Of a stretch of 64,000 nucleotides of DNA, positions 8,954-15,983 are shown one piece after another (the stretch's first letter is position 1; each line of letters opens with the position of its first letter). The notes below the pieces were generated by a model. That model was given only the letters and a program-made list of their open reading frames with translations, was not told where the DNA came from and ran no database searches. A program made the position numbers and the translations under genes. The stretch is from Parafilimonas terrae (GTDB lineage: Bacteria; Bacteroidota; Bacteroidia; Chitinophagales; Chitinophagaceae): assembly GCF_900115755.1 (NCBI RefSeq), contig NZ_FOXQ01000004.1, positions 124,001 to 188,000 on the forward strand, read 5' to 3'.

Positions 8954-9005
8954 CTTGAAGTTTAGAGATCTTGAATAACCATTTAATTGCAGCCAAGAAA
9001 ACAAT

Positions 9006-10199
9006 CTAACTGTTAGCATAATCACTTAAATATTCAAAGCCGGGTGTAAGCTTTCCCTCTTTTAAAATAGTGGCTTTATCTATAATGCTGCTGCCTTTTA
9101 TATAATCACTCAATACATGCTTTATTAATTGCTCGCCAAAAAAACGGCTGGCATCGCGGGGCAGCTCGTTGGGCAAATTGCCAACAGCCATTACATCTAT
9201 ACTTGTTTTTAAATAAGGAGCGGTGCGTTGCAATGTAACCTTATCAACACCATAAACAGGATCGTTTATAGTGCAATCGCCAAGGTTAACGGGAATGCTG
9301 CCATGTGCATCATCGGTAATATCCGCAATGGTTTGTATTTTAAATCCATCCGCCTTTATATCATCTGCCTCAAATAAGCGTGGAATAGTAGCATCCCAGT
9401 AAACGCCGTTCATTAAAATATCTGTATGCAAAGTATATGGTTGAAAAAGGCATTCATACTGCGGCGCATTCGCATGAAAATCGTCCCTTGTATAAGTGCG
9501 CTTTTCTTTGTGCGTATATAAATCTGCACCTTTTAAATGCACATAAACAGGGTAAGAAAATGTTTTGTTTATATATTCATCAGGCTCCACTTCCTGCACA
9601 TCTACTATATTCATTATTTCGAGAATGCCATGCGCTACACGGCCGCTGCCTGTTACTGCAATTTTTACAGGCGGCAGCTTCAAACCAAAATACGTATGAA
9701 TTAATTCGAGATAATCTTTCTGTTTATAAACCCTTCCTAATTTATATGCACCGGTTCTTTCTCCATAAGCCATCAACCCGTTGTGCGCACCAACTATGCC
9801 TGCAAAAAAACCAAAACCGATAATACGTTGCCCGTCTTCATGTTCCAAACATTCATAGTCAATCAATGTAATTTTTTTCTTCACCATTTCCTGCATGAGC
9901 TTTTGATTATACGGCTGCAATTTTTTGGTGTGTGAAAAAAACATGTAGGCTTTATTGGCCAGCAGCATATTTACCGGCACTTCTTTAATGCCCAGCAACA
10001 GATCGCAGTTCGAAAGGTCTTCCTGCAATACAGCGCCGGAGCGCTCATATTCATTATCGCTGAAACAGCGCGTTGAAGATGGCTGAACAAGAATTTTAAA
10101 GTCAGTGCTTTTCAAAAGCCACCTGCATTGGGCAGGCGTAAGTGCAACACGATTATCAGCAGGGATTTTTCCTTCACGAATTAAACCTATAACGGGCAT
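9006..10199 (-). CDS. Saccharopine dehydrogenase (lysine-forming)/alanine dehydrogenase-like NAD(P) enzyme
   Basis: The 397-residue protein starts with IGLIREGKIPADNRVALTP, the N-terminal signature of the alanine dehydrogenase/transhydrogenase/LYS1 group. A nucleotide-binding segment follows at ~175-190 (KIAVTGSGRVAHGILEIM), and the C-terminal half contains ADITDDAHGSIPVN, recalling lysine-forming saccharopine dehydrogenase. The substrate is uncertain: lysine metabolism is the best guess, but many Bacteroidota homologues have no tested activity. It lies in the same direction as leuS, 69 bases after its stop. Confidence 0.72.
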   Translation of the reverse strand: MPVIGLIREGKIPADNRVALTPAQCRWLLKSTDFKILVQPSSTRCFSDNEYERSGAVLQEDLSNCDLLLGIKEVPVNMLLANKAYMFFSHTKKLQPYNQKLMQEMVKKKITLIDYECLEHEDGQRIIGFGFFAGIVGAHNGLMAYGERTGAYKLGRVYKQKDYLELIHTYFGLKLPPVKIAVTGSGRVAHGILEIMNIVDVQEVEPDEYINKTFSYPVYVHLKGADLYTHKEKRTYTRDDFHANAPQYECLFQPYTLHTDILMNGVYWDATIPRLFEADDIKADGFKIQTIADITDDAHGSIPVNLGDCTINDPVYGVDKVTLQRTAPYLKTSIDVMAVGNLPNELPRDASRFFGEQLIKHVLSDYIKGSSIIDKATILKEGKLTPGFEYLSDYANS

Positions 10200-10216
10200 G
10201 CAATATGTTTTGGTGA

Positions 10217-10262
10217 ATAGTAATGATGAATAATGAATACCTCACTACCCGCCATTCACCAC
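10217..10262. repeat. Short TGAATA/ATTCACC simple repeat cluster
   Basis: The leuS/dehydrogenase gap holds GTGAATAGTAATGATGAATAATGAATACC and then CCATTCACCACTCACAATT. Similar strings occur at 31505-31557 and 56970-57000 in this window. They look like members of an intergenic low-complexity repeat family built on GTGAATGG/CCATTCAC units. No gene is present. Confidence 0.4.
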
Positions 10263-10268
10263 TCACAA

Positions 10269-13200
10269 TTAAATAACAATATTTACCATCCTGTTTTTTA
10301 TAAAGATGATCTTCTTTGGTTCTTTGCCATCCAGCCATTTCTGAATCACATCGTTTTGCAGCACTATTTCTTCCACTTCTTTTTGAGAAGCGTCTAAAGA
10401 TATATTGATGGTTGTTCGCAGTTTACCATTTACGCTGATGGGGTATTCTTTGGATGACTCCACCAAATATTTTGCATCGAATGTTGGATAAACTGCATCT
10501 AAAACGCTGCCTTCATTGCCCAAAGTATGATATAGCTCTTCGGCAATAAACGGCGCATAAGAAGATAACATAATAACCAACGGTTGCAATATTTCTTTCT
10601 TATGGCATTTTAAATCGGCCAGTTCATTCGTGCAAACCATAAAGGCCGAAACAGCAGTATTATAAGAAAAGCGTTCAGTATCTTCTTCAATTTTTTTGAT
10701 GGCTTTATGGAGGATTTTTAATTCAGCATCGGTGGCTTTATCATTTGTTACAATAACCTCACCCCCCGCCCTCTCCAAAGGAGAGGGAGCCGTTGCAACT
10801 TCCTTGTAAAATAAACGCCAGAATTTTCTCAGGAAACGATGCACGCCTTCAATACCTTTTGTATCCCAGGGTTTGCTTTGCTCCACCGGCCCTAAAAACA
10901 TTTCATACATGCGGAAAGTATCGGCGCCATATTTATCAACCAGATCAGAAGGGTCAACTGTGTTGAATTTTGATTTGGACATTTTTTCGGTTTCAACACC
11001 GCAGATGTACTTGCTTGTTGAACTTTCAGAATAGATTGATCCGTCTTCTAAGATAAATATTGCATTTGCATATTCGCCGTTACGCCATTGTTTGAATTTT
11101 TCTATATCTAATTCAATGCCATCAACAATGTTTACATCAACATGACTTTCATATATAGAATAAGCCTCTATCTTAGCGCTACTTGAAATTTTGGCGACTA
11201 CCGTACGAATAATAGAATCAAATTCTTCCTTTTTAGCTTTATAATTACCATACTGCCCTTTTGAAACTACTATCTGTGGAAAATTCGGTTTTTCCTGCCC
11301 ATCTTTACCTTCATACCATAAAGCTACCCTATATACAAACCTCGAACTTCCTTGTATCATTCCCTGGTTCAACAATTTTTTATAAGGTTCATCAAAGCTT
11401 ATCAAACCAAGGTCAAATAAAAATTTCGTCCACATGCGGCTATATAATAAATGGCCGACTGCATGTTCAGTTCCGCCCACATACACATCCACCTGGTTCC
11501 AGTAATCGCTGGCTTTTTTAGAGCAGAAAGTTTCATTATTGTGCGGGTCCATATAACGCAGAAAATACCAGGAAGAGCCGGCGTAACCGGGCATGGTGGA
11601 AGATTCACGCAGTGCGACCTCACCCCCCGCCCTCTCCAAAGGAGAGGGAGCCACTGCAACACCGGTATCATCTCCGGCAATTAAACTTTCGCTGATCTTT
11701 TGTAATACCTGCGGCAAATGATCTATAACTTCATCATTAGTAAATCTTATCAATTTATACTCATACTCCTTTAGCCATTCAGTTCTTACTTCATCAAATT
11801 TTCTCTGTTCTTCTTTATTATGATACTCACCATCAATTTCCACAATTAACTTCTTTTCCAGACAAACAAAATCAGGAATATAGCCTGCAACGGGATGTTG
11901 CCTTCTGAATTTGCATCCGTTTAAATTTCTGTTTCTTAATTCCTGCCATAATTTGTTTTCAGCTTCAGTTTTATTCCGTCTGTTCTCTTTTGCATACACA
12001 GATAATATTTTCCATTGTTCGGGCGTACTGGTAATATATCCGGGCATTGAGCTTTTAGCTCCCCTCTCCTTTGGAGAGGGGTTGGGGGTGAGGTCAATAA
12101 TTGAACTTGCAGGAACTTCAATCCAATTTAAGTTGTTTGAAAGGGGGCCTTCACCATCCTTTCCCGGTTTTATATCTTCCATAGGTGGCAATTCCAGCGG
12201 CAATTCGCTTTCATCCAAAGGATAAGCAATGCCATCTTTCCAAACTATCGGGAAGGGTTCGCCCCAATAGCGCTGGCGGCTGAATGCCGCATCCCTCATC
12301 TTATAATTCACCTTGGCCTTGCCATAACCCAGGTCTTCTATTTCTTCAACTACTATTTTTATGGCATCACGCATCAGCATGCCGGTAAGAAAATTACTGT
12401 TTTCCAGTTCCGCATCTTTTGTTGGATTGGCTTCTTTGCCATTAAATGCTTCGCCGATAATATTGGTAATTTCTATATCGAAATGTTTGGCAAAACGAAA
12501 GTCGCGTTCATCGCCGCAAGGCACAGCCATAATAGCGCCGGTACCATAACCCGCCAACACATATTCACTGATATAAACAGGCACTTCGCGGTTATCAAAT
12601 GGATTGATTGCATACGCACCGGTAAATGCACCGCTAATGGTTTTCTCCGCCATGCGCTCACGCTCACTGCGGCTTTTGACCCAGGTAATATATTCTTCAA
12701 CTTCCTGCTTTTGTTCGGGCGTTGTTATTTCCTCAACCAGTTCATGTTCCGGTGCAACCACCATAAAGTCAACACCAAAAATGGTGTCAGGCCTTGTAGT
12801 AAATACACGCAGCTTTTTATCGCTGTCGCTTATTTTAAAATCAATTTCAGCACCGTAGCTTTTACCAATCCAGTTGGTTTGCATTTCTTTCATTGCCTCA
12901 CTGAAATCCACTGTTTCCAGGCCTTCCAGCAAGCGGTCGGCATATTCAGTAATGCGCAAATACCATTGGCGCAGCTTCTTTTTTACAACAGGATAACCGC
13001 CGCGTTCACTCACGCCATTCACCACTTCATCATTCGCCAGCACTGTTCCCAATGCTTCGCACCAGTTCACTTCGCCATAACCGCAATAAGCAAGGCGGTA
13101 TTCCATAAGAATATCTTGTTGTTGCTTCTCAGAGAAATTATTCCATTGTTCAGCAGTGAATGTATTACCGGTTGACGGCTGACCGTTAACCGTTGGCCGA

Positions 13201-13742
13201 AACTGAAAATTCTGATTTGGAAACGGATGATATTCATTGCCATCTTTTTCAAACGAAGCAACCAGCACATCAATGCTTTCTGCCTTTTTGGTTTGACGGT
13301 TATAGAATGATTTGAAAAGCTGCAGGAAAATCCATTGTGTCCATTTATAATAAGACGGATCGCTGGTATTTACTTCTCTTGACCAGTCGAAACTGAAAGC
13401 AATTTTATCCATTTGCTTCCTGAAGTTCTGAATATTCTGCGCCGTGGACACAGCGGGATGAATGCCATGTTCAATAGCATACTGCTCAGCGGGCAAACCA
13501 AATGCATCATAACCCATGGGATGCAAAACATTAAAGCCTTTTAAGCGTTTATAACGTGCATAAATATCGCTGGCAATATAGCCCAGCGGATGGCCCACAT
13601 GCAAACCCGCACCGCTTGGATAAGGAAACATATCAAGCACATAATATTTGGGTTTGGATGAATCGTTGCTTACTTTATATATTTCATTGGCGGTCCACCA
13701 GTCCTGCCATTTCTTTTCTATTTCGCTGAAATTATATTCCAT
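10269..13742 (-). CDS. leuS: Leucyl-tRNA synthetase with in-frame nuclease-element and repeat insertions
   Basis: Class-I synthetase charging tRNA-Leu. The HIGH-type motif (GLHVGHPLGY, residues ~45-54), the editing-domain region, the TMPGYAGSSWYFLRY segment and KMSKS (EKMSKSKFN) are all intact, so the enzyme should be active. At 1157 residues it is clearly longer than usual. D550-V709 is a 160-residue insertion: a DUF559 endonuclease domain between palindromic repeats, placed just before TMPGYAGSSW. V982-V996 is a 15-residue solo copy of the same repeat, and RPTVNGQPSTG (~183-192) is a different palindromic repeat. All keep the reading frame. The DVNIV region near KMSKS is normal for Bacteroidota LeuS. 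No second leuS is in the window. Confidence 0.96.
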   Translation of the reverse strand: MEYNFSEIEKKWQDWWTANEIYKVSNDSSKPKYYVLDMFPYPSGAGLHVGHPLGYIASDIYARYKRLKGFNVLHPMGYDAFGLPAEQYAIEHGIHPAVSTAQNIQNFRKQMDKIAFSFDWSREVNTSDPSYYKWTQWIFLQLFKSFYNRQTKKAESIDVLVASFEKDGNEYHPFPNQNFQFRPTVNGQPSTGNTFTAEQWNNFSEKQQQDILMEYRLAYCGYGEVNWCEALGTVLANDEVVNGVSERGGYPVVKKKLRQWYLRITEYADRLLEGLETVDFSEAMKEMQTNWIGKSYGAEIDFKISDSDKKLRVFTTRPDTIFGVDFMVVAPEHELVEEITTPEQKQEVEEYITWVKSRSERERMAEKTISGAFTGAYAINPFDNREVPVYISEYVLAGYGTGAIMAVPCGDERDFRFAKHFDIEITNIIGEAFNGKEANPTKDAELENSNFLTGMLMRDAIKIVVEEIEDLGYGKAKVNYKMRDAAFSRQRYWGEPFPIVWKDGIAYPLDESELPLELPPMEDIKPGKDGEGPLSNNLNWIEVPASSIIDLTPNPSPKERGAKSSMPGYITSTPEQWKILSVYAKENRRNKTEAENKLWQELRNRNLNGCKFRRQHPVAGYIPDFVCLEKKLIVEIDGEYHNKEEQRKFDEVRTEWLKEYEYKLIRFTNDEVIDHLPQVLQKISESLIAGDDTGVAVAPSPLERAGGEVALRESSTMPGYAGSSWYFLRYMDPHNNETFCSKKASDYWNQVDVYVGGTEHAVGHLLYSRMWTKFLFDLGLISFDEPYKKLLNQGMIQGSSRFVYRVALWYEGKDGQEKPNFPQIVVSKGQYGNYKAKKEEFDSIIRTVVAKISSSAKIEAYSIYESHVDVNIVDGIELDIEKFKQWRNGEYANAIFILEDGSIYSESSTSKYICGVETEKMSKSKFNTVDPSDLVDKYGADTFRMYEMFLGPVEQSKPWDTKGIEGVHRFLRKFWRLFYKEVATAPSPLERAGGEVIVTNDKATDAELKILHKAIKKIEEDTERFSYNTAVSAFMVCTNELADLKCHKKEILQPLVIMLSSYAPFIAEELYHTLGNEGSVLDAVYPTFDAKYLVESSKEYPISVNGKLRTTINISLDASQKEVEEIVLQNDVIQKWLDGKEPKKIIFIKNRMVNIVI
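10756..10799. repeat. Solo copy of the palindromic repeat inside leuS
   Basis: This 44-base stretch matches 11617-11660, the repeat at one end of the nuclease element, at 42 of 44 positions. It includes the hairpin CCCTCTCC-AAA-GGAGAGGG and the same flank ending in TGCAAC. In leuS it encodes V982-V996, including PSPLERAGGEV, in a loop that related synthetases fill with a few unrelated residues. It is in the same orientation as the 11617-11660 copy. Confidence 0.85.
11616..12095 (-). mobile_element. 480-bp DUF559 endonuclease element with palindromic terminal inverted repeats, in frame within leuS
   Basis: The ends are inverted copies of one repeat. The + strand begins GACCTCACCCCC at 11616 and ends GGGGGTGAGGTC at 12095. 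Each end continues into the palindrome CCCTCTCC-AAA-GGAGAGGG, giving ~36-base terminal inverted repeats that differ mainly in a two-base core (CG versus AA) plus one-base indels. Between them, on the minus strand, lie 132 codons of a DUF559 (Vsr-like, PD-(D/E)XK) domain: FRRQHP at ~613-618, the catalytic D624 (PDF), E635-x-D637-G and H641, then the usual RxxWL and LIRFTNDEV segment. The length is exactly 160 codons with no stop, so leuS stays open. No clear target-site duplication is visible. It could instead be an old domain insertion rather than an active element. Confidence 0.75.
13167..13196. repeat. Palindromic GGTTAACGGTC-type repeat inside leuS
   Basis: On the coding strand this reads AACGGTTAACGG, a four-base loop, then CCGTCAACCGGT, arms that pair at 10 of 12 positions. 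It encodes TVNGQPSTG near residue 185. The same vocabulary (TVNGQRSSVNRQP) is encoded by the repeat at 30149-30197 in gldD, so the two are probably members of one interspersed family that tolerates translation. Confidence 0.6.
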
Positions 13743-14006
13743 AATTAAGTTTAAAAGTTTACGTGTTCACGGATGCAGTTTCTAACGGTTTGATGTTTTA
13801 AAAAGTCTGACCATGTTTACCATTGTTGCAACTCCGAAAACCAGGAGAGCCAGCAGTAAGGCCAGGTCTGCTGCCGATTATTAAACAAAAACACTTATTG
13901 TAAAAGAATTTTTGCAATGGCTGCAAACCTAAGTAAAAGCTAAGAAAATATACTGGAATGAAGTTTTCCGGAATTAAAGCCGTTTTTTCAGGGCAAATGC
14001 TTCTGT

Positions 14007-15983
14007 TTATGGTGCAGCTTCTTCGCTTTCAAACGCTGCCTTTGCTGCATCAAGATGCTTTATGAATTTATCAATATCAGGATCATAACCATATTTAATA
14101 TTGCTCAGTATTTTTTGATCAGCCGTAATAAACATATACAGGGGTTGCGCATTGGAACCAAATTTGGTTATTTCGTAATCAAGATTTCTATCGCCTACAT
14201 TTTCAACTTCTTCCCCTCTTGCATTCTTATATCTTTCATCAGCGGCTAATTCTGTCGGCTCATCCACATATAAACTCACAAGCACAAAGTTTTCACTTAT
14301 TCGTTTCAACACTTCAGGATCGCTCCATACCTCCGCTTCCATTCTACGGCAGTTAGAACAGGAATAACCTGTAAAATCAAGCATAACAGGTTTATGCAAG
14401 GCTTTTGCAGCAGCTATGCCTTCATCCAGGTCGAAATAAGCGGTAAGGCCATGCGGCGCCGAAATTTTATCAGCAAACTTTTTAGGCGGTAATGCTGCGG
14501 ATTTCGTTTCATCGCTGTTATTTGAACCAGCATTAATATGCACCCTCGACAAATTAAAATCAAGCGTATAGTCCGGCGGAAGCCAGCCGCTTAAAGCCTT
14601 TAAAGGTGCGCCCCACATGCCGGGCAATAAGTATAAAGCAAAGGTGAAAGCAGCAATGGCAAAAAACAGGCGCGTGATGGTTAAATGCTTCACATCGCTG
14701 TCGTGATAGAATTTTATCTTGCCCAACAAATAAATGCCCAGCAATATGGCGAGCACAATCCAAAGCGCAATAAAAATTTCGCGGTCCAGCAGGCGCCATT
14801 TATATATCAAATCAACATTGCTTAAAAATTTCAGCGCTAATGCCAGTTCAATAAAGGCAAAGCTTACTTTAACGGTGTTAAGCCAGCCGCCACTCTTTGG
14901 CAATGAATGCACCAGCGAAGGGAATAAAGCCAGTATGGTAAACGGCAAAGCAAGCCCAACGCCAAAGCCAAACATACCCGCAATAGGGCCGGCCGCAATG
15001 CCTTCTGATGAAAGATAACTTAATAATTGCCCTGCTACAATGCCCGTGCAGCTAAAGGAAACAATCACCAAAGTGAGCGCCATGAAAAATATCCCGATAT
15101 AACCTTTTTTGCCTGCAAGCTTATCGGTTCTTGTTGACCATGATGAAGGCAGTGTAATATCAAACAAACCAAAAAATGAAAGTGCAAAAACAATGAAAAT
15201 GGCAAAGAACAATAAATTGGTTACAGGATGAATGGAGATTTTATACAACGTGGTATCGCCAAAAATTAATGTAAGCAATGTGGTGGGGATGCCATAAATA
15301 AGAATGATACAAAGCGAATAAAACAATGCATTTTTACGGCCTTGCTTTTTGCCGCCATAGTGATGCATGAAATAAGTTATAGTTACCGGGAACAAAGGAT
15401 AAAGACAAGGCGTGAATACGGCAATCAGCCCGGCAATTAAACCTATCCAGAAAAAGTTCAGCCAGCCCTTTGGCTTTTCATCTGTAATATTTATGCCTGT
15501 TATAGAAGCTTTTTCAGGCGCAACAGTCACTTCAATCTTTTCTTCGCCGCTGGGAAATTCATCACCAGTTTTACCAAGCCATGCAAACGAACCTTTAATA
15601 ACAGCGCTATCTTCTTTTTTTATTTTTAAAGGATAAGATATGATTGCTGAATCTGCGAAAGCCCTGAAAGTAGTTGCAGTGTTTTCATCGTTAATTAACT
15701 GAAGGTTGGAAGATTGGGTGATGCTTGTATCAACAAGATATTTAGCAGCATTGCTATCTAAATTAAGCTGCGATATAAAAGCATCATCTGTATTAAGTGG
15801 TTTAACAGAAAACAACAAAAAACTTTTATCAAGCTTTGCTTTTATTTTAAGATACACCAATGAATCATTTTTTCTTTCTGTTGAAAAAGAAAAATGAACC
15901 GGGGTGTTTTGTGCATGCACGTTAAAACAGCATGCCAATACAATCAGTAATAAAGAAAAGCATTTAATGCAGCGGCTTTGCAT
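14007..15983 (-). CDS. dsbD: Thiol:disulfide interchange protein DsbD
   Basis: It passes electrons from the cytoplasm to periplasmic thiol proteins. Domain order: signal peptide (1-24), a DsbD-alpha-like domain (~25-165), a membrane domain of about eight helices (~172-470) with the redox cysteines in FTPCLYPLFPVT (C193) and SFSCTGIVAG, and a C-terminal thioredoxin domain with CSNC near residues 540-543. The length of 658 is slightly above classical DsbD. The start codon shares one base with the stop of the upstream DsbD-N-domain gene. It probably serves cytochrome c maturation or periplasmic reduction. Confidence 0.93.
   Translation of the reverse strand: MQSRCIKCFSLLLIVLACCFNVHAQNTPVHFSFSTERKNDSLVYLKIKAKLDKSFLLFSVKPLNTDDAFISQLNLDSNAAKYLVDTSITQSSNLQLINDENTATTFRAFADSAIISYPLKIKKEDSAVIKGSFAWLGKTGDEFPSGEEKIEVTVAPEKASITGINITDEKPKGWLNFFWIGLIAGLIAVFTPCLYPLFPVTITYFMHHYGGKKQGRKNALFYSLCIILIYGIPTTLLTLIFGDTTLYKISIHPVTNLLFFAIFIVFALSFFGLFDITLPSSWSTRTDKLAGKKGYIGIFFMALTLVIVSFSCTGIVAGQLLSYLSSEGIAAGPIAGMFGFGVGLALPFTILALFPSLVHSLPKSGGWLNTVKVSFAFIELALALKFLSNVDLIYKWRLLDREIFIALWIVLAILLGIYLLGKIKFYHDSDVKHLTITRLFFAIAAFTFALYLLPGMWGAPLKALSGWLPPDYTLDFNLSRVHINAGSNNSDETKSAALPPKKFADKISAPHGLTAYFDLDEGIAAAKALHKPVMLDFTGYSCSNCRRMEAEVWSDPEVLKRISENFVLVSLYVDEPTELAADERYKNARGEEVENVGDRNLDYEITKFGSNAQPLYMFITADQKILSNIKYGYDPDIDKFIKHLDAAKAAFESEEAAP

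Follow-up and report, generated by a model that had tools for sequence, protein, structure and literature searches.

Inteins place a homing endonuclease domain in frame in essential proteins, typically beside the conserved motifs of essential enzymes. For the translated palindromic repeats of the Rickettsia type, we know of no agreed mover. According to the sections of PMC3733652 used here, intragenic REPs and Rickettsia palindromic elements are short palindromes that lie in frame in protein genes, are translated, and occur singly or in groups. The sections of PMC3943268 used here describe I-Bth0305I as the EDxHD homing endonuclease.

We analyzed a stretch of 64,000 nucleotides from Parafilimonas terrae (the window; NCBI RefSeq assembly GCF_900115755.1, contig NZ_FOXQ01000004.1, positions 124,001 to 188,000 of the forward strand). 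Its leuS gene is read through an inserted element that encodes a nuclease domain between inverted hairpin repeats, and the same gene holds a further repeat:

10269..13742, minus strand: leuS (leucine--tRNA ligase), the host gene read through the element, 1157 aa (open ORF, Pfam, NCBIfam).
11616..12095, minus strand: inserted element of 480 bp, 160 codons, stop-free, with inverted hairpin repeats at both limits (sequence, empty sites in relatives).
12059..12097, plus strand: element end on the N-terminal side (leuS sense), with hairpin 12062-12080 and tag GGGTGAGGTC, translated DLTPNPSPKERG.
11614..11651, minus strand: element end on the C-terminal side, with hairpin 11630-11648 and tag GACCTCACCCCC, translated APSPLERAGGEV.
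11682..11999, minus strand: DUF559 (EDxHD/Vsr-like) nuclease domain with intact active-site residues (profile, conserved residues, solved-structure relatives).
10753..10790, minus strand: solo hairpin repeat without nuclease, in frame in leuS, translated ATAPSPLERAGGEV (pattern search and covariance model).

The first-pass annotation had described a leuS segment bounded by inverted hairpin ends, and the sequence of 11616-12095 bears this out. Read directly, positions 11616-11648 are GACCTCACCCCCCGCCCTCTCCAAAGGAGAGGG and positions 12062-12095 are CCCTCTCCTTTGGAGAGGGGTTGGGGGTGAGGTC; because the reverse complement of the latter is GACCTCACCCCCAACCCCTCTCCAAAGGAGAGGG, each end repeats the other in inverted orientation and includes a hairpin. 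The unit so inverted is GACCTCACCCCC plus a CCCTCTCC-AAA-GGAGAGGG hairpin. With up to two mismatches allowed, the hairpin pattern occurs three times in the window and in none of 100 dinucleotide shuffles; the third copy (10769-10787), absent from the earlier annotation, likewise lies within leuS. The segment keeps the leuS frame, and both HVGH (the HIGH motif) and KMSKS are visible in the translation, as had been stated. The Pfam match to DUF559 covers LeuS aa 582-686 (E 3.4e-34), and the nuclease residues named at first reading (D624, E635, D637 and H641) are the ones to which the core alignment numbering maps. The same Pfam scan detects the editing and anticodon domains, and the host protein scores 939 bits against NCBIfam leuS_bact (cut-off 548.4). 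The AlphaFold model of the whole LeuS is mediocre (mean pLDDT 71.9, 24 sequences), with moderate confidence in the nuclease region and low-confidence linkers within 556-582 and 691-708 on either side, a picture compatible with a tethered nuclease domain.

Chance or an assembly artefact, for which one could point to the metagenome assemblies among the relatives, is scarcely credible, given that the shuffles yield no such hairpins and that the window's genome is rated 100% complete with 0.31% contamination. Isolate genomes too carry in-frame DUF559; its ends match in Flavobacterium and Ilyomonas, and in Marinilabilia and Winogradskyella they are weaker.

The window's leuS site was surveyed by whole-protein search in 39 genomes (its own and 38 relatives), the counts being our own. 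The insert is absent and the LeuS halves adjoin in 29 of the 39 genomes, so a filled site in all relatives, which would have spoken against the first-pass view, is not what is seen. The site is filled in G000, G005, G007 and G019, and its state is not assignable in four of the 39 (G001, G002, G006 and G029). G003 has a filled leuS (C1) and an empty leuS (C67) in one assembly; this assembly has 7% contamination, and the two alleles may come from two strains. In G018 the window's site is empty and the insert occupies another leuS site. Aligned LeuS sequences place the insert in the loop immediately before TMPGYAGSSWYF.

At the position of the solo repeat, most other LeuS sequences in a 24-row alignment have a few residues, e.g. 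KGK, and the window's form of the repeat is found among these rows in the window, G003 and G005 only. A different repeat-like peptide occupies this position in the LeuS of L203. In the G065 leuS (L157, 2628-3796), DUF559 is present at one site and a solo in-frame hairpin of the same type at the window's DUF559 site, possibly a footprint or a second insertion. A second region of strongly variable length among relatives lies at leuS aa ~806-866 (window 11000-11350).

Relatives of the insert are present in 65 of 147 genomes of the family, many of them in frames of 500-1400 aa. After removal of duplicate loci, the in-gene set comprised 61 ORFs with 63 copies, a few of which come from other leuS-survey genomes; we analyzed these 63 long-ORF copies and 44 short-ORF records, a subset of the matches in the 147 genomes. 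The site labels of the 63 copies are leuS-CP1 (17), leuS-LSD (8), metH (7), icmF (7), aroC (4), cinA (3), and metG, homocysteine-transferase module, adenine deaminase and argB N-terminal (2 each). Nine further labels, including ispG, an Lhr-like helicase and HsdR, occur once each, and placement is N-terminal in six of the 63 copies. Family models were used to name the hosts of 26 of the 61 ORFs, with every cluster represented at least once, and of further representatives. Several host profiles are split into two stretches that flank DUF559, and two leuS ORFs (L081 and L091) contain two DUF559 copies each. The HsdR of G073 (L107) has GIY-YIG and DUF559 (aa 265-331 and 466-571) before the motor domain of this type I restriction subunit.

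A set of titled records supplied 80 loci, of which four were dropped for short flanks; among the remaining 76, 67 lie in ORFs of at least 200 aa. Hosts in this set, named by motif or similarity and for representatives by family models, add ileS, valS, recG, wecB, paaZ, a UvrD-like helicase, and N-terminal placements in ispF and gmk in Bacteroidota. In a sample of the phylum, DUF559 was found in 170 of 296 genomes. Outside Bacteroidota, plasmid DUF559 units with inverted palindromic flanks occur in Pseudanabaena, Deinococcus and Azospirillum; a Picosynechococcus unit has weak repeats only, and two Synechocystis plasmid DUF559 genes have no flanking inverted repeats. Phage records gave two distant matches only. 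Viral contigs contain 60 relative loci, of which 57 could be scored for matching ends (end score, defined below), with three at 15 or more against none of 228 controls. Two contigs titled Streptomyces griseus and Limnohabitans (L196 and L197) carry leuS and recG with DUF559 resembling those of Bacteroidota; their bins are possibly misassigned. The expectation of further DUF559 copies with repeats has thus been borne out: the combination is not confined to one copy and recurs in many genes and as short separate ORFs.

The DUF559 (PF04480) profile scores 117-123 bits against a cut-off of 20.6. Seven residues (E, Q, D, E, D, H, D) are invariant in all 63 in-gene copies; we relied on this alignment because the search patterns for the 67 titled long-ORF copies contained some of these residues, which biases conservation in that set. 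Among solved structures, the profile matches 3hrl (NGO0050, an endonuclease-like protein of Neisseria gonorrhoeae; E 3.3e-29) and 3r3p (the I-Bth0305I catalytic domain; E 1.5e-5). An AlphaFold model of the nuclease domain (pLDDT 73.6) submitted to Foldseek found the same two first (1.6e-7 and 2.1e-4), with Vsr at rank 9 (E 0.1).

The ends were compared within each copy by aligning its left flank to its right flank in reverse complement, with mispaired flanks as controls. An end score of at least 15 was reached by 25 of the 63 in-gene copies (controls, 7/189) and by 24 of the 44 short-ORF copies (controls, 7/176). At the titled-record loci the corresponding figures are 44/76 and 61/304, or 37/76 and 21/304 for a score of at least 20. 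The other 38 of the 63 in-gene copies score below 15; many ends have therefore decayed or are of a different type. Hairpins vary among copies, yet they may agree closely inside one copy (L079, L102; L198, L199). Across genomes, the repeat goes together with the nuclease, in line with the linkage that the first-pass annotation had supposed: at least two CTCTCC hairpins were found in 35 of 65 genomes with DUF559 and in 4 of 82 without it (27/42 and 3/58 with one genome per genus), and the same pattern read backwards gave zero in every genome row. End type correlates with nuclease identity over all pairs in a Mantel-type test that covers the 117 copies with an end score of at least 12 (rho 0.23, 0 of 500 permutations). 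For pairs at different sites the correlation is not significant (rho 0.06, 67 of 500 permutations), and because of this result we make no claim of end-nuclease covariation across sites.

Three loci (L154, L155 and L156) show hairpin pairs ~180 nt apart, inverted in L156, with no DUF559 core between them, which are possible miniature elements. In G143 (C1:322566-435017), many CCCTCTCC hairpins with recurring loops extend over ~110 kb; elsewhere the repeats are scattered.

Ends also vary among copies in length, sequence and reading frame, and among 23 copies with the exact tag an identical end is read in two frames. This variation bears on the possibility of a product without the segment, which would then be an intein, an intron or a stretch skipped by translational bypassing between the hairpins. 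Placement beside conserved motifs in essential enzymes, as in inteins, and hairpins at both sides would suit such removal, which we nevertheless consider most improbable, with ends so different among copies and the entire segment with its linkers open in frame. No intein or Hint splicing domain was found in the LeuS protein by Pfam and NCBIfam scans, and an intein was rejected on this ground and on the variable ends. A group I or II intron was rejected likewise, the Rfam scan of window positions 9000-15000 giving no matches at gathering score and the reading frame being open throughout. The earlier view of an element without splicing is therefore upheld for the intron families and splicing domains covered by these three databases.

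Genes for Y1_Tnp are present in 106 of the 147 genomes, four of them in the window's genome, and the repeats might accordingly be REPs moved by a Y1 (RAYT-like) transposase, with DUF559 as a passenger between two of them. This is improbable, as DUF559 still predicts the repeats within genomes that have Y1 (30/54 with DUF559 against 4/52 without), whereas Y1 has no effect among genomes that have DUF559 (30/54 against 5/11, p 0.74). Moreover, of 20 Y1 loci read, one shows a CTCTCC hairpin within the stretch retrieved, and five have inverted flanks of other make (score of at least 15, against 1 of 100 controls). Two of these five (L358 and L371) are Y1 genes with flanking inverted palindromes of their own and GGGTAG-type tags. 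The Pfam scan found no Y1 domain in the window's LeuS protein; REP/RAYT membership and a Y1 origin were rejected on this absence, on the independence of the repeats from Y1 and on the single hairpin at 20 Y1 loci.

Solo repeats are numerous in the window's genome. A covariance model of 11 copies matched at least 43 places at E<=1 and at least 30 at E<0.01, with rough E-values and with counts that are lower bounds, 150 of 1112 first-look candidates having been scored. Among 30 repeat loci read, six repeats are in frame in conserved genes with long ORFs: leuS has three of them, and genes for dihydroorotase, an RtcB-family protein and alanyl-tRNA synthetase have one each. Another four are no more than ~30 codons from where an open frame begins and may precede the actual gene, and one locus (L343) was not assignable. 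Solo copies and the paired copy alike are palindromic repeats in frame in ORFs, as in the Rickettsia type. The best reading is that solo hairpins spread too.

A tree of 106 nuclease cores was built. The window's copy falls in a group with leuS copies from two sites and aroC copies from other genera. The tree has at least 24 changes of host label, or 25 when short ORFs are counted as a state. Copies at the same leuS site in the same genus are not sisters for G065/G153 (p-AU 0.00011) and G051/G144 (p-AU 0.0013), nor are the four leuS copies of the window's genus (p-AU 7.5e-7), the groups in these AU clade tests having been named after the first tree had been inspected. In G085, a near-identical 484-bp DUF559 unit (97.7%) stands at the starts of two different genes (L127 and L130); an inner hairpin marks its left limit, and both loci also have an outer hairpin, in diverged form. 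At L130, the downstream kinase-like gene seems to lack its usual start codon.

For some same-site copies, descent looks vertical: the icmF copies of G051 and G144 are sisters on the tree, and the metH copies of three Winogradskyella diverge in step with their hosts. These copies would suit a domesticated fusion, in which DUF559 was recruited as a host domain (e.g. a DNA-damage or defence nuclease) and is kept for its benefit, the repeats being remains. So would the selection on the nuclease core, whose dN/dS, computable in 16 of 27 pairs with the remainder saturated, is 0.05-0.15 in 14 pairs and 0.25 and 0.27 in two, close to that of the host enzyme. Nine recG loci combine weak ends (scores 7-12) with intact active-site residues, albeit in a search biased to these residues. 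This combination agrees with host use as well as with mobility; domestication in some lineages is therefore a serious alternative. As a general explanation we consider it unlikely, because the hosts are unrelated enzymes without a common function, the distribution is patchy with empty sites, two lineages occupy one site inside one genus, and many copies have matching hairpin ends. The purifying selection is compatible with a moving element and with a host function alike. The proposal of a selfish or homing-like element in the first-pass annotation is supported overall, with 'selfish' as a possible rather than an established attribute.

We regard it as probable that the leuS insert belongs to a widespread class of spliceless mobile elements, each made of two palindromic ends and an EDxHD/Vsr-like nuclease gene, placed in frame in a host gene and translated as one of its domains. 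That the class exists and is widespread is well supported at the level of sequence by the anatomy, the recurrence, the matching ends within many copies, the empty sites, the intact active sites, the different lineages found at a single site and the link between repeats and DUF559. Movement and expression are what we infer beyond this. The element would consist of two inverted palindromic ends of ~35 nt and one single-domain DUF559 nuclease gene, and its copies would enter genes in frame at insertion-tolerant loops. There, without splicing, translation would add it to the host enzyme as a further domain, and the nuclease would thus owe its expression to the host gene; the host protein, nuclease domain included, would be made and functional. 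The nuclease may cut at repeats or empty sites, after which repair would copy the element in, in a homing-like manner. What bears on such site-specific cleavage and copying is indirect, namely the site turnover and the filled and empty alleles. With some reserve, we also lean towards a reading in which these are phylum-wide, palindrome-bounded elements in essential genes of Bacteroidota that live as a protein domain, the homing-type nuclease made by host translation is active, and palindromes left as solo ends spread in translated form; splicing would not be needed because the elements settle in loops tolerated by the host fold.

The related copies in many genes suggest mobile DNA persisting as an added part of host proteins, and the DUF559 nuclease is a candidate for the enzyme by which translated palindromic repeats spread. 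If true, this would account for unexplained insertions in Bacteroidota synthetases, MetH, RecG and other enzymes, and the element sites would mark the loops at which these folds can take up an entire domain.

In-frame palindromes, EDxHD nucleases and gene-plus-repeat units are known already. In the open-access literature we found no description of a palindrome-bounded nuclease gene in frame in essential genes without splicing; one may exist elsewhere. None of the known families tested fits the element class as a whole, the Rickettsia-type elements being compared by description only; as described, they resemble the present repeats in being palindromes in frame in protein genes. The intragenic REPs in the sections of PMC3733652 used here encode short peptides of 20-30 aa, with clusters of 43-82 aa, and no nuclease gene within the host ORF appears in those sections; the tags there are GTAG and CGTC, whereas GGTGAGGTC stands at the present element end. 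With the REP/RAYT systems, as these sections present them, the element shares a small gene between palindromic repeats and many solo repeats in the genome. However, the present nuclease is EDxHD/Vsr-like rather than Y1/HUH, its coding copies lie in frame inside genes, and Y1 genes in the present genomes are rarely near this repeat. I-Bth0305I has the same nuclease fold; it is multi-domain and comes from mobile introns in the account of PMC3943268 used here, whereas the present element is a catalytic domain with linkers only, and no self-splicing element was found with it.

Like inteins, the element lies in frame near conserved motifs, but it has no splicing domain and, as far as can be told from its sequence, the nuclease domain would stay in the protein. 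If true, this would be a third way, besides introns and inteins, for a selfish nuclease to reside in an essential gene: by tolerance, not by removal.
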